Shown here piece by piece: positions 24,193-28,571 of a stretch of DNA of 32,720 nucleotides. The stretch covers positions 1 to 32,720 of the forward strand of contig JASBRJ010000268.1 in assembly GCA_030149525.1 (NCBI GenBank). The letters are read 5' to 3'. The stretch comes from a bacterium (lineage in GTDB: Bacteria; Vulcanimicrobiota; Xenobia; Xenobiales; JADMJV01). Below the pieces are notes generated by a model, which worked only from the letters and a program-made list of their open reading frames with translations, was not told where the DNA came from and did not search any database. Every line of letters begins with the position of its first letter. Position 1 is the first letter of the stretch. The position numbers and the translations under genes were made by a program.

Positions 24193-25044
24193 ATGAAGAA
24201 CACCTTCGATAAGCTGTGGGAACTCCTTAGACTGGAGCAGACCTTGTTCGCCCTTCCGATCGCGATATCGGCCAGTTTGTGGGCGGCCCTAGGACTGCCC
24301 CCCTTAAAGGCCATGCTTCTAATGATTGTCGCCATGGTGGCCGCCCGAACCGCTGGTATGAGTGCCAATCGCCTCATCGACGCTCGCATCGACTCAAAGA
24401 ACCCTCGCACCGCAGAGCGCCTCTTGCCCTCAGGACGAATTCAGCCGGCACCGGTGCTCCTCGTGCTGATGGTCTCTCTTGCTTTGTTGGCCTGGTCGGC
24501 CTGGTCACTCAACCCACTCTGCTTCAAGCTGTGTCCACTGGCCTTTCTTCTGCTCTTGTCCTACAGCTATCTCAAGCGTTTCACCTGGGCGTGCCATTTC
24601 GGTTTAGGCGCCGTTCAGGCGTGCGGCCCTTTGGGAGCCTGGTTCGCCATTACCGGCAGCTTCGACTGGGCCGCCCTCTGGCTGGCTCTCGGCGTGGCTT
24701 TTTGGATGGCGGGTTTCGACATTCTCTACGCCCTGGCCGACGAAGAGTTCGACCGAGAGCACGGAATCTATTCCGTCCCCGGTTGTTTCGGGGCGGAAAC
24801 GGCTTGCCGGGTTAGCAAACTCTGTCATCTTGTCTGTTTTCTCTTCTGGTGTCTGTTTAGTTACACCGTAGGAGGGGGACCATTCTTAGGAGCGGGGATG
24901 GGTGCGGTTGGTTCCATGCTGGTGTGGGAACATGTTCTAGTGGGACCACAAAGGCTTGGCCAACTGCCCCTGGCCTTTTTCAAGGTCAATAGTTTTATTT
25001 CAGTCATCATACTGGGGGCGACGGTAGGAGAGATATTTTTATGA
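24193..25044 (+). CDS. mqnP: UbiA-family prenyltransferase (MqnP-type)
   Basis: A 283-aa polytopic membrane enzyme that attaches the isoprenoid chain to the aromatic quinone precursor. Both Mg-diphosphate motifs are intact: N59-R60-L-I-D63-x3-D67-x2-N70-P-R-T and D176-I-L-Y-A-x2-D183-x3-D187-x3-G191. About eight hydrophobic segments surround them. In this setting, with mqnA, mqnC and a ubiE/menG gene downstream, the substrate is most likely the futalosine-pathway 1,4-dihydroxy-6-naphthoate rather than 4-hydroxybenzoate. I start at ATG 24193 where homology begins (L-R-L-E-Q-T-L-F-A-L-P); no ribosome binding site is evident. The stop overlaps the next start (ATGA). Confidence 0.9.
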   Translation: MKNTFDKLWELLRLEQTLFALPIAISASLWAALGLPPLKAMLLMIVAMVAARTAGMSANRLIDARIDSKNPRTAERLLPSGRIQPAPVLLVLMVSLALLAWSAWSLNPLCFKLCPLAFLLLLSYSYLKRFTWACHFGLGAVQACGPLGAWFAITGSFDWAALWLALGVAFWMAGFDILYALADEEFDREHGIYSVPGCFGAETACRVSKLCHLVCFLFWCLFSYTVGGGPFLGAGMGAVGSMLVWEHVLVGPQRLGQLPLAFFKVNSFISVIILGATVGEIFL

Positions 25045-25895
25045 GTCAGAGTGAACAGTGGAAAAACCTGTTCAGAGAGCAAGACTCCACCAGGCTTGCT
25101 CTGCTGGTTCGAGATACGGGCGCCTTCGGTCCTGACAAGGCCGTGCGAGCCCTGGGAGACGACAAAATGCTGCTTCTTGGAGGCGCAAGTCACGCGGCGC
25201 GGCTCTCCAAACGGTCCTCTCAGAGGGAGCCGTCGGAGCCTTTGTGTGTTGTTGTGACGCCTGAAGAAGAGCAGCAAGATTCAGAGTTTCTGGAGGCTGT
25301 GAAGCAGGCCAGAGCCGAGTTCCCCGAGGCCGAATTGGCCGGGTTCGGTCCAAAGAGTTGCTGGCCCCTGCTGGATCGGCTGGTGATGAGAGTCGGGGAA
25401 GTCGGCAAAGATTTCACTCTCGACTCTCAGTGGGACAGTCAAAATCAGGTGGCTCAGAAACTCTCCGCCGTCTTGGTCTACTCTCCCGAGGCGAGTCCCG
25501 AAGCCCTCGAAAAGGCTTGCGAGGCTCTTCTCAGGGCCAAGAATCTCCACGGAGTCGTTGCCTTGCCTCTCGGGGCCGGAGATCGCATTCCGTTGCCTGG
25601 ACTCACCACCGCTGGAACCGTCGACATGATGATTCTCAGCGCGTTGAGGCTTTTGTTGCCCCAGGAGATCAAGGTGCGCGCTTCCTGGGCCGCTTTGGGT
25701 TGGAAGGTAGCCCAACTGGCCGTCATGTACGGCGCCAATGAGTTAGCCGGATGGAGCGCTGCCGAAACCGCGGTCTACAGCGGCCGAGTCAGGGCAGCGG
25801 CTCGAGTCGAAGAAGACGAGCTTTTGCAGGGAATGGCCGAAGCCGGTTGGAGAAGAACCCCGTGGATACCAGGCAAGGTAGGAGTCGAGTTGTGA
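25041..25895 (+). CDS. Unknown protein with an MqnE/MqnC-like C-terminal region, no radical SAM motif
   Basis: A 284-aa protein in the middle of the menaquinone operon, overlapping both neighbours by four bases (ATGA upstream, GTGA downstream). Residues about 188-284 follow the C-terminal part of the radical SAM enzymes MqnE and MqnC: L-S-A-L-R-L-L-L-P, then K-V-R-A-S-W-A-A-L-G-W-K-V-A-Q-L-A-V-M-Y-G-A-N-E-L, then a helix and A-E-A-G-W-R-R-T-P. The N-terminal 185 residues show no CxxxCxxC cluster; its only Cys are at 69, 107 and 160. It therefore cannot bind the 4Fe-4S cluster in the usual way. It may be a remnant, or a non-catalytic partner in futalosine metabolism. The similarity is my own reading and not a search result. 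Confidence 0.72.
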   Translation: MSQSEQWKNLFREQDSTRLALLVRDTGAFGPDKAVRALGDDKMLLLGGASHAARLSKRSSQREPSEPLCVVVTPEEEQQDSEFLEAVKQARAEFPEAELAGFGPKSCWPLLDRLVMRVGEVGKDFTLDSQWDSQNQVAQKLSAVLVYSPEASPEALEKACEALLRAKNLHGVVALPLGAGDRIPLPGLTTAGTVDMMILSALRLLLPQEIKVRASWAALGWKVAQLAVMYGANELAGWSAAETAVYSGRVRAAARVEEDELLQGMAEAGWRRTPWIPGKVGVEL

Positions 25896-26719
25896 GCCAC
25901 CTCAGGTTCGGAGTTCTTCGATACATTAACTGCTTACCCGCCACTATGGCCATTGAAAGAGGCGAAGTCGATCTCTGCGGCTGGGAGGTCCAGAAGGGTA
26001 TCCCGGCCGAGCTCAACGCCCGGATGAGAGCCGGAAGCCTGGATGTTTCTCTGGTCTCAGCTGCCGAGTACCTGGAAAACGAAGAGCACTACCAATTGCT
26101 TGATGAGTTTGGTCAATGGTGTCTCGGTCCGGTGGAGAGTGTTTGTCTGTTTTCGCCACGGAGCCGTCGTCAGCTCACCGACTTGCCTCAATGCGTGGTG
26201 GGCGTAACTCCGGAAAGCGCCACTTCGGTTGCGCTGACCGGATTGCTCTTGCCCAACGCGCGTACCGAAGTCTTTGCTTCCCTGGAATCGGCGGAAGTCG
26301 GCCTTAATCAGGACAGATTCCAAGCCGTTCTCCTCATTGGAGACAAGGCTCTGTCTCCGCCGGAATGGACCAGGGATTTGCAAGTTCACGACCTGAGTGA
26401 GTGGTGGAACGATGTGACCGGTTATCCTATGACCTTTGCCGTGTGGGTGGCTCGCAAAGATCTGCCTCCGTCGGAGGTGAATCGAGCTCGAAGCCTTTTG
26501 AAAGCATCGCTTGCCTGGGGGTCCGAGCACAACGACGACGTTGTGGCCGAGGGAGCCCGCCGCTCCGGACTCAGTGAGGCTCGAATTAGGAGCTACCTCG
26601 AAAATCTCAACTTTCTCACCACCGAAGAGTCCCGGCCTGGATTTTTGGAGTTCCGCACGCGCCTCAGGCAACGCCGTATCTTCGGTGTTCCCCCCGTAAC
26701 CACCGGGCTTTGCCTGTGA
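25892..26719 (+). CDS. mqnA: Chorismate dehydratase MqnA
   Basis: A 275-aa protein with the periplasmic-binding-protein-like fold of MqnA, which removes water from chorismate to make 3-enolpyruvylbenzoate, the first committed step of the futalosine menaquinone pathway. Visible family features: the start F-G-V-L-R-Y-I-N-C-L-P, the L-D-V-S-L-V-S-A-A-E-Y segment (about residues 50-60), L-L-I-G-D-K-A-L (about 147-154), and the late L-S-E-W-W-N-D-V-T-G-Y-P-M-T-F-A-V-W pattern that marks MqnA/MqnD. The GTG at 25892 overlaps the preceding stop (GTGA) and has GGAG seven bases upstream; an earlier ATG at 25751 would lie inside the previous gene. Confidence 0.92.
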   Translation: MSHLRFGVLRYINCLPATMAIERGEVDLCGWEVQKGIPAELNARMRAGSLDVSLVSAAEYLENEEHYQLLDEFGQWCLGPVESVCLFSPRSRRQLTDLPQCVVGVTPESATSVALTGLLLPNARTEVFASLESAEVGLNQDRFQAVLLIGDKALSPPEWTRDLQVHDLSEWWNDVTGYPMTFAVWVARKDLPPSEVNRARSLLKASLAWGSEHNDDVVAEGARRSGLSEARIRSYLENLNFLTTEESRPGFLEFRTRLRQRRIFGVPPVTTGLCL

Positions 26720-26728
26720 TTGGAGAAG

Positions 26729-27817
26729 ATGATTAAGATGTCTGTAAGCAGTACCAAGATTCGGGACCTTCGGGTCAAAACATCGCGACCTCGTCTGACT
26801 CAAGAAGAGGGACTGGCCCTCTTCGACGCCGATCTTTTGGATTTGGCTCGTCAAGCCGACGAAGTCCGACGAGAGCTTCACCCCGAGGGTTACGTCACTT
26901 TCATTCGTGATCGCATTATCAACTACACAAATGTATGCATCACCTATTGCAAATTCTGCGCCTTCTATCGACCTCCCGGGCACCCGGAGAGCTATGTGCG
27001 CTCAAAAGAAGAGATCTTTTCCAAGGTGGAGGAGATGCTGGAGCGAGGCGGCACCACCCTCATGCTGCAAGGGGGGCACAACCCCGAGCTGAAGATCGAT
27101 TACTACGAAGATCTTTTCAGTTCCATCAAGCAACGCTTTGATGTCTACCTTCACAGTCTCACGGCAACCGAGGTGGATCATATGGCCGAAGTCAGCGGCC
27201 TTTCACTGGAGGAGACCCTGACTCGCCTCAAGCAAGCCGGCCTGGATAGTCTCCCGGGCGGTGGAGCCGAGATGCTGGTGGACGACATCCGAGACAAGGT
27301 CGCTCCTCTGAAAACTTCGGCCGACCGCTGGTTTGAGGTTCACGAAACCGCTCACAAGGTTGGCATCGAATCCACGGCTACCATGGTGTTTGGTTTTGGA
27401 GAAACCGATCGCCACCGTATCGAACATCTGGAGCGACTTCGAGCCCTGCAAGACCGCACGGGAGGGTTCCGGTCTTTCATTCACTGGAGTCTCACACCTG
27501 GTAACAGCGGAATGATGAGAACGATTCCACCTGCCGGCGCCGAGTATCTCAGAATAATGGCTATCGCTCGACTGTATCTCGACAACTTCAGCCACATTCA
27601 CGCCGGTTGGGTGACCGAGGGGGCCAAGTTAGCCCAACTGGCTCTTCAATACGGGGCCGACGACCTGGGCAGTGTGCTCATGGAAGAGTTGGTCATTTCC
27701 GCCACCGGCGTCGCCTACGCCTACAACGCCGAGCAGATAGCCGCCATGATTCGCTCCGTCGGCCGCATCCCGGCTATTCGAAACTCCAAGTATGAGATTT
27801 TGAAAGTCCTTGACTGA
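26729..27817 (+). CDS. mqnC: Cyclic dehypoxanthinyl futalosine synthase MqnC
   Basis: A 362-aa radical SAM enzyme that cyclises dehypoxanthine futalosine. The 4Fe-4S motif is C70-I-T-Y-C74-K-F-C77, preceded by I-N-Y-T-N-V, and followed by A-F-Y-R. Other family blocks: M-L-Q-G-G-H-N-P (about residues 112-119), A-G-L-D-S-L-P-G-G-G-A-E (about 169-180), F-G-F-G-E-T and H-A-G-W-V-T-E-G-x-K-L-A-Q-L-A-L-Q-Y-G-A-D-D-L-G near the end. This last form favours MqnC over MqnE. Three starts are possible (TTG 26720, ATG 26729, ATG 26738); GGAG sits just before the middle one, which I use. It lies nine bases behind mqnA and overlaps the following methyltransferase gene if that starts at TTG 27810. Confidence 0.94.
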   Translation: MIKMSVSSTKIRDLRVKTSRPRLTQEEGLALFDADLLDLARQADEVRRELHPEGYVTFIRDRIINYTNVCITYCKFCAFYRPPGHPESYVRSKEEIFSKVEEMLERGGTTLMLQGGHNPELKIDYYEDLFSSIKQRFDVYLHSLTATEVDHMAEVSGLSLEETLTRLKQAGLDSLPGGGAEMLVDDIRDKVAPLKTSADRWFEVHETAHKVGIESTATMVFGFGETDRHRIEHLERLRALQDRTGGFRSFIHWSLTPGNSGMMRTIPPAGAEYLRIMAIARLYLDNFSHIHAGWVTEGAKLAQLALQYGADDLGSVLMEELVISATGVAYAYNAEQIAAMIRSVGRIPAIRNSKYEILKVLD

Positions 27818-28571
27818 ACCGGTGTCTCCTCAAACCCCAGCACCTCTCAGGGTTGAAGAGCCCCAACAGCGAGCAGACCTGGTCCGTCAGATGTTCGACC
27901 GGGTCTGTAACCGCTATGAGCTAAACAATCTTCTGTTATCTTTCGGTATGGATGCTTATTGGCGGTGGCGGGCGCGCAAAGAACTTCGGCTCGGACCCGC
28001 CGACCGGATCGTCGATCTCTGTTGTGGAACAGGCGCGGTGACTCGTTGTCTTGCCGGAGCCGTTCCCCAGGGCGAAGTGGTAGGGGTCGATTTCTCGGCC
28101 GGCATGTTGGAACCGGCCAGGACCCGTGGTGGTCCGGCAGGTGGTGGGAAGGTTCGCTACATCCAGAGTGATGTGTTGCAGGTTCCTTTGCCCGACCATT
28201 CCTTCGATGCCGTCACGATTTGCTATGGTCCCCGAAACATCGTGGATCTTCCCGCTTTATGGAAAGAGATGAGACGGCTGGTCAAGCCGGGGGGGCAGGT
28301 GCTCAGTTTGGAGTTGACCCGCCCTAAGGGCCTTTTAGGATTCTTTCATGAGATCTACCTTAACACCATCGTCCCCTTTCTCGGGGGATTGGTATCGGGG
28401 GACCGAGAGGCCTACAATTACCTCAGCAAAACCATTTCGGGTTTTTTGGCCCCTGAAGAGCTCGCTCGCTCCATGTCTGCAAGTGGACTCAAGAAAGTCC
28501 GCTTTATTCCGTTGAGCGGCGGCATTGTCACGATTCATCACGCCTTCACTCCCGTTGACCAGGAGGATTGA
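27810..28571 (+). CDS. menG: Demethylmenaquinone methyltransferase (UbiE/MenG)
   Basis: A 253-aa class I SAM-dependent methyltransferase that adds the ring methyl group in the last step of menaquinone synthesis. Features: the UbiE signature around residues 35-53 (N-R-Y-E-L-N-N-x3-S-F-G-M-D-x3-W), the SAM loop V-D-L-C-C-G-T-G-A (68-76), G-V-D-F-S-x-G-M-L (94-102), C-Y-G-P-R-N and the late Y-N-Y-L-x-x-T-I. The start is either TTG 27810, overlapping mqnC by eight bases, or GTG 27822, just after it; neither has a clear ribosome binding site. It is the last gene of the menaquinone operon. The hairpin CATTCC-CCA-GGAATG at 28577-28591 follows the stop, but without a T-run. Confidence 0.92.
   Translation: MTEPVSPQTPAPLRVEEPQQRADLVRQMFDRVCNRYELNNLLLSFGMDAYWRWRARKELRLGPADRIVDLCCGTGAVTRCLAGAVPQGEVVGVDFSAGMLEPARTRGGPAGGGKVRYIQSDVLQVPLPDHSFDAVTICYGPRNIVDLPALWKEMRRLVKPGGQVLSLELTRPKGLLGFFHEIYLNTIVPFLGGLVSGDREAYNYLSKTISGFLAPEELARSMSASGLKKVRFIPLSGGIVTIHHAFTPVDQED

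Follow-up and report, generated by a model that had tools for sequence, protein, structure and literature searches.

A predicted MqnE-type barrel without the radical SAM cysteine motif is conserved in a menaquinone operon

We found that gene X, a 284-residue open reading frame in a futalosine-pathway operon, is predicted to encode a shortened paralog of the radical SAM enzyme MqnE that has lost the iron-sulfur motif CxxxCxxC, and that it is conserved across the order to which its genome belongs, with purifying selection seen in two genera. It most likely serves as an accessory or regulatory subunit rather than as an enzyme, and is probably not a dying gene. The reading we prefer is that X is a conserved MqnE-derived pseudoenzyme serving as a non-catalytic partner of the pathway's enzymes, and we would give it about an even chance of being right. 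The DNA analysed, hereafter the window, is the whole 32,720-nucleotide stretch of contig JASBRJ010000268.1 (assembly GCA_030149525.1), in which X lies in the following run of genes.

24193..25044, + strand: mqnP, UbiA-type prenyltransferase (UbiA E 1e-51; NF041586 MqnP_DT 290 bits, under the cut-off)
25041..25895, + strand: X, putative cluster-less shortened MqnE paralog (pseudo-MqnE), 284 aa (open reading frame, overlaps, HMM, hhalign and fold match)
25617..25769, + strand: segment of X with the strongest conservation, about residues 193-243 (invariant columns of the ten-sequence X alignment)
25892..26719, + strand: mqnA, chorismate dehydratase family (PF02621 184.8 bits; GTG start overlapping the X stop)
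26720..27817, + strand: mqnC, radical SAM cyclase with CxxxCxxC intact (TIGR03699 466 bits, cut-off 428)
27810..28571, + strand: UbiE/MenG-type methyltransferase, the final gene in the run (PF01209 E 8e-48; TIGR01934 205 bits)

The start of mqnP is taken as the ATG at 24193, in an open frame that extends from 24085. An earlier note on this DNA, made from the window by itself, had described four-base overlaps of X with both neighbours, and both were seen: the ATG of X at 25041 shares four nucleotides with the mqnP stop (ATGA, 25041-25044), and the X stop at 25893-25895 shares four with the GTG start of mqnA at 25892 (GTGA). The identities that the note gave these neighbours, mqnP and mqnA, agree with UbiA-family and PF02621 profile matches, and it was correct in finding no intact MqnE or MqnD in the window, an intact MqnE and a gene read as mqnD being encoded elsewhere in the genome.

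The same note had likened the last 100 or so residues of X to MqnE and MqnC, and the HMM matches bear this out at E values around 1e-6, above chance: residues ~192-270 match TIGR00423 (E 2e-6), the MqnC model TIGR03699 (E 3e-6) and the MqnE model TIGR03700 (E 6e-6), so that the profiles placed the C-terminus with MqnE, MqnC and CofH rather than in an unrelated family, the outcome that the note had set against its own reading. The match to Pfam CofH_C (PF19288; E 6e-6, 26.5 bits) lies just under the gathering cut-off of 27 bits, and three copies from a sister family described below score 31.7-35 bits. Against the MqnE equivalog TIGR03700, X reaches 25.3 bits, below the cut-off of 434.55, its C-terminal part alone being recognised.

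The first two thirds of X, which the note held to be unlike a radical SAM core, proved recognisable as a shortened core when relatives were used in profile alignments and models. By hhalign, the X family aligns with 13 intact MqnE proteins over 219 columns (probability 98%, E 2e-14) and slightly more weakly with MqnC (E 3e-13), these E-values being pairwise and having relative meaning only. The N-terminal part taken alone gives a suggestive 48% probability against MqnE, and 96% (E 1e-9) against the sister-family intermediates. An AlphaFold model of X made from an alignment of the ten X sequences alone is of mixed confidence (pLDDT 66.5) and poorly modelled at the N-terminus (pLDDT about 50); its top four matches in a fold search of the PDB are MqnE crystal chains (6XIG/6XI9, E 8e-5). 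The model of the ortholog in genome G001, for which the input alignment included sister-family intermediate rows, is confident (pLDDT 85, pTM 0.86) and matches MqnE first (E 2e-11), followed by the radical SAM enzymes BioB, HydG, ThiH and PylB. Querying solved-structure sequences with X as a single protein returned nothing relevant, with one sorbitol dehydrogenase match at E 0.25. The comparison with MqnE and MqnC that had been proposed thus upheld the kinship, with MqnE the best PDB match, and did not uphold its confinement to the last 100 residues.

Profile and fold likeness over most of the length argue for MqnE-related descent and fold, and, judging from the alignments and models, most of X is a shortened MqnE-type barrel, so that it is no unrelated protein that merely ends like MqnE. 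It resembles MqnE (TIGR03700; PDB 6XI9/6XIG) in fold, over most of its length, in its slot by mqnA and mqnC and in several C-terminal residues, but it is about 75 residues shorter and without the CxxxCxxC, HIVGG and GGGAE motifs. With MqnC and CofH (TIGR00423 family) it appears to have the C-terminal CofH_C region in common; however, the second gene downstream of X encodes an intact MqnC, and X aligns slightly better with MqnE.

The claimed loss of CxxxCxxC holds for the window protein and for all ten X proteins, the cysteine loop being deleted in a joint alignment with MqnE. The SAM-binding GG that follows strand 2 (G107-G108 of MqnE) is gone from X, the first glycine alone being kept in the sister family, and the GGGAE motif is mostly gone as well; X therefore has neither of the features expected of a functional radical SAM enzyme, CxxxCxxC in the first barrel loop and GG at the SAM site. 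From what is established for the superfamily, radical SAM chemistry cannot begin in a protein that lacks the ligands of the cluster, and X would be unable to make the 5'-deoxyadenosyl radical. Among 82 columns conserved in MqnE, 18 are kept in X and 40 in the sister family (joint alignment). The residues left in X are mostly C-terminal (R274, A285, W287, G291, G302, A303, D304, G308 and E313, in MqnE numbering). The X family has 33 invariant columns among its ten sequences, concentrated from R203 to E242 in window numbering; the segment at 25617..25769 contains R203, R213-A-S-W216, G220, K222, Q225, G231 and E242 and aligns without gaps with R274, W287, G291, G302 and E313 of MqnE.

Orthologs of X were found in nine other genomes of the window's order, which settles the earlier question of whether the gene is kept in relatives, and the reading frame is intact in all ten. 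The order mqnP-X-mqnA-mqnC holds in every X genome whose contig reaches that far. G001-G006 each offer a possible start for X that overlaps the stop of mqnP as GTGA, and in genus g6 the start lies farther from that stop. In the ten-sequence alignment, loop loss has gone further in some X proteins than in others. Within the phylum, a joint-profile search of 149 genomes scored X and intermediate forms at >200 bits and all else at <=132 bits; rows of the joint profile score high by construction, and the meaningful result is that no further genome joins the X and intermediate set. One or the other form is present in 13 of 13 class genomes with an mqnA-mqnC operon, and neither occurs in four class genomes without MqnA, MqnC and MqnE; in G011 (85% complete) MqnE was seen and no operon contig. 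All the genomes are in draft form, and those with names are mostly titled as MAGs.

Outside the phylum, X was sought by scanning 84,980 species genomes for matches to the X family profile, which returned nine loci, all apparently from this group; their titles name Candidatus Eremiobacterota (three), SZAS-1 (contig EREM-KAN-1), UBP9, which we take to correspond to Xenobia (two), 'bacterium' (two) and Burkholderiales (one). The Burkholderiales-labelled bin (L085, JAAZKF010000342.1) has this X operon just as the UBP9 bins do and is probably a mislabelled MAG. From these titles, and from the classes listed in PMC9758169, we name this class of uncultured bacteria within the Eremiobacterota Xenobia/UBP9.

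Elsewhere in the class, beyond the window's order, three genomes (G015, G016 and G017, family f4) encode a full-length MqnE relative directly before mqnA. These intermediates score 100-158 bits against TIGR03700 (cut-off 434.55) and have three cysteines in every case: two show the spacing CxxxCxxC and one the spacing C-x5-C-x2-C. They lack the second glycine of the SAM site and the greater part of the GGGAE motif. In outgroups G019, G022 and G025 an intact mqnE adjoins mqnA and mqnC, and X sits in the slot that intact mqnE holds in other Eremiobacterota. X and the f4 intermediate group together in the tree with support 97/97, a join that carries a long-branch warning as both are long branches; when either was removed, the other still fell outside the MqnE, MqnC and CofH clades. 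The window X is the most divergent member of its family (terminal branch 2.2). Placement of X among the MqnE clades was distrusted owing to the long branches.

A separate intact mqnE, which the note had proposed looking for, is present in the window genome (C43:684-1763, 457 bits, CxxxCxxC present), and an intact MqnE above the TIGR03700 cut-off is encoded elsewhere in all 13 genomes with X or the intermediate. The window genome has a second PF02621 gene (MqnA/MqnD family) outside the window, read as mqnD. Three PF02621 genes instead of two are found in G001-G005, the third at a separate locus.

In genus g2 (five species), Nei-Gojobori dN/dS ratios are 0.07-0.19 for X, 0.05-0.16 for mqnA, 0.04-0.11 for mqnP and 0.02-0.08 for mqnC, the values for X lying near those for mqnA and mqnP, and in genus g6 they are 0.26-0.36 for X as compared to about 0.13 for mqnC; several dS values are near saturation and the ratios are approximate. 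Both halves of X are constrained, the C-terminal half generally more so. X is under purifying selection, and a neutral relic would not show such ratios; the protein is evidently in use, and its sequence changes faster than that of MqnC, the operon's catalytic radical SAM enzyme. Loss of catalytic residues (18 of 82 columns kept) together with purifying selection (dN/dS 0.07-0.36) is the mark of a pseudoenzyme.

The earlier note had left three options for X: a scaffold or regulator, a functional replacement, or a decayed copy kept for coupling. X is not simply decaying, because purifying selection acts along the whole protein, and it is not a replacement enzyme, because intact MqnE coexists with X or the sister form in all 13 genomes; with these two disfavoured, scaffold or regulator is left as the candidate. 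X would thus derive from an mqnE that formerly occupied the operon slot, with the second, intact MqnE encoded elsewhere carrying out catalysis. In one branch, represented by the sister family, the operon copy would have lost SAM-binding motifs and kept three cysteines; in the window's order the iron-sulfur loop would have gone entirely, along with several loops of the barrel, and the gene would have been retained under selection, overlapping its neighbours. Keeping the C-terminal end of the barrel, X may have become a non-catalytic partner that stabilises, activates or organises the pathway enzymes, intact MqnE being the first candidate because it is a paralog, and MqnC or MqnA the next because they are translated together with X. 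Against this, X adjoins mqnA and mqnC, not the intact mqnE, and it diverges faster than mqnC. The window X itself, as the most divergent copy with a weak N-terminal model, could be drifting in its own species.

X is proposed as a partner or regulator for one of the enzymes MqnE, MqnC and MqnA, a kind of role that has precedents. The AdoMet decarboxylase prozyme and FAM20A are pseudoenzymes that partner active enzymes (PMC10211241), and the prozyme, an inactive homolog that activates its enzyme by heterodimerisation, works as X might (PMC10211241); it belongs, however, to another enzyme family, and its partner and activation are proven, whereas the role of X is proposed. QTRT2, a subunit of eukaryotic tRNA-guanine transglycosylase (PMC6165067), is likewise a retained non-catalytic relative of an active enzyme, again from another family and with its pairing proven. 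The heme chaperone HemW (PMC10320005) is a radical SAM family member with a non-enzymatic task, but it still has a [4Fe-4S] cluster and X is without the motif. A more specific form of the partner reading, that a cluster-free radical-SAM pseudoenzyme is a dedicated and obligatory subunit or activator of futalosine-pathway enzymes in one Eremiobacterota class (Xenobia/UBP9), with a preserved series from intact MqnE through a cysteine-bearing intermediate to a cluster-less barrel, is tentative, and we lean somewhat against it.

The main rival to a partner role casts X as a sensor or allosteric regulator that binds metabolites and would hold aminofutalosine or a related intermediate in a remodelled MqnE pocket and adjust flux without entering a stable enzyme complex. 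Its descent from an enzyme with a solved product complex (6XI9) and the retention, towards the C-terminal end of its barrel, of R274, W287, G291, G302 and E313 would suit such a protein, but many other MqnE-conserved residues are lost and Pfam showed no output domain in X, DNA-binding or otherwise; we regard this reading as unlikely, if still deserving of attention.

A second alternative is that X is an mqnE relic in slow decay, its frame held open only for translational coupling to mqnA through the overlapping codons. The overlap between the C-terminal end of X and mqnA is indeed kept, the window X is very divergent and loop loss is uneven among X proteins. However, dN/dS is well below 1 in both halves, and coupling alone would not preserve invariant residues along with an open frame across ten species, so a relic appears improbable.

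Marginally less probable again is that X has taken over another reaction, such as the MqnB/MTAN step, in which aminofutalosine is hydrolysed. Recognition of the MqnE product would be expected of X, and no gene passed the MqnB (TIGR03664) or MTAN (TIGR01704) cut-off in any X genome, that of the window included; but the same gap exists in outgroups G019 and G020, which have an ordinary mqnE and no X, and weak nucleosidase-family relatives occur in several X genomes (PF01048 search). X was therefore rejected as the missing MqnB, since the gap does not track it. The PNP_UDP_1 fold of the MqnB/MTAN hydrolases was not found in X, for which Pfam gave the borderline CofH_C match alone and the fold search gave MqnE-type barrels. 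A gene on C296 was also considered as MqnB (25.9 bits to TIGR03664), and reading it gave no basis for the call. At L105:1201-2283, a 360-aa open reading frame has a stretch read as DUF952-like at its N-terminus, followed by a nucleoside-phosphorylase-like region.

Catalytic replacement of MqnE by a new, cluster-free mechanism is the least credible reading, and X was rejected in that role, for it occupies the mqnE slot but lacks the cluster and most SAM-site residues and has an intact MqnE above the equivalog cut-off alongside it in every X genome.

Pseudoenzymes are known in many families. We found no account of a degenerate MqnE in open-licence PMC papers, and no radical SAM pseudoenzyme of this sort was apparent in the portions available of the literature naming both 'radical SAM' and 'pseudoenzyme'. 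In this pathway for a respiratory cofactor (vitamin K2/menaquinone), cluster loss can be traced stepwise in a single class whose genomes also have an intact paralog. A partner role for X would predict a regulated or multi-enzyme futalosine pathway; if true, the series shows a radical SAM enzyme stripped of its chemistry and yet kept. A further caution is that an inactive protein can be taken for MqnE from its place in the operon and its C-terminal HMM matches.

Unusual reading frames were also seen in outgroup G019. One, at L071:4078-5757, is a 559-aa frame that combines an intact MqnE with a region read as a UbiX-like flavoprotein. Another, at L071:6600-7550, is MqnC-like but lacks ~46 internal residues, its matches to the MqnE model covering 2-212 and 259-351, which reflects either a deletion or an assembly error.
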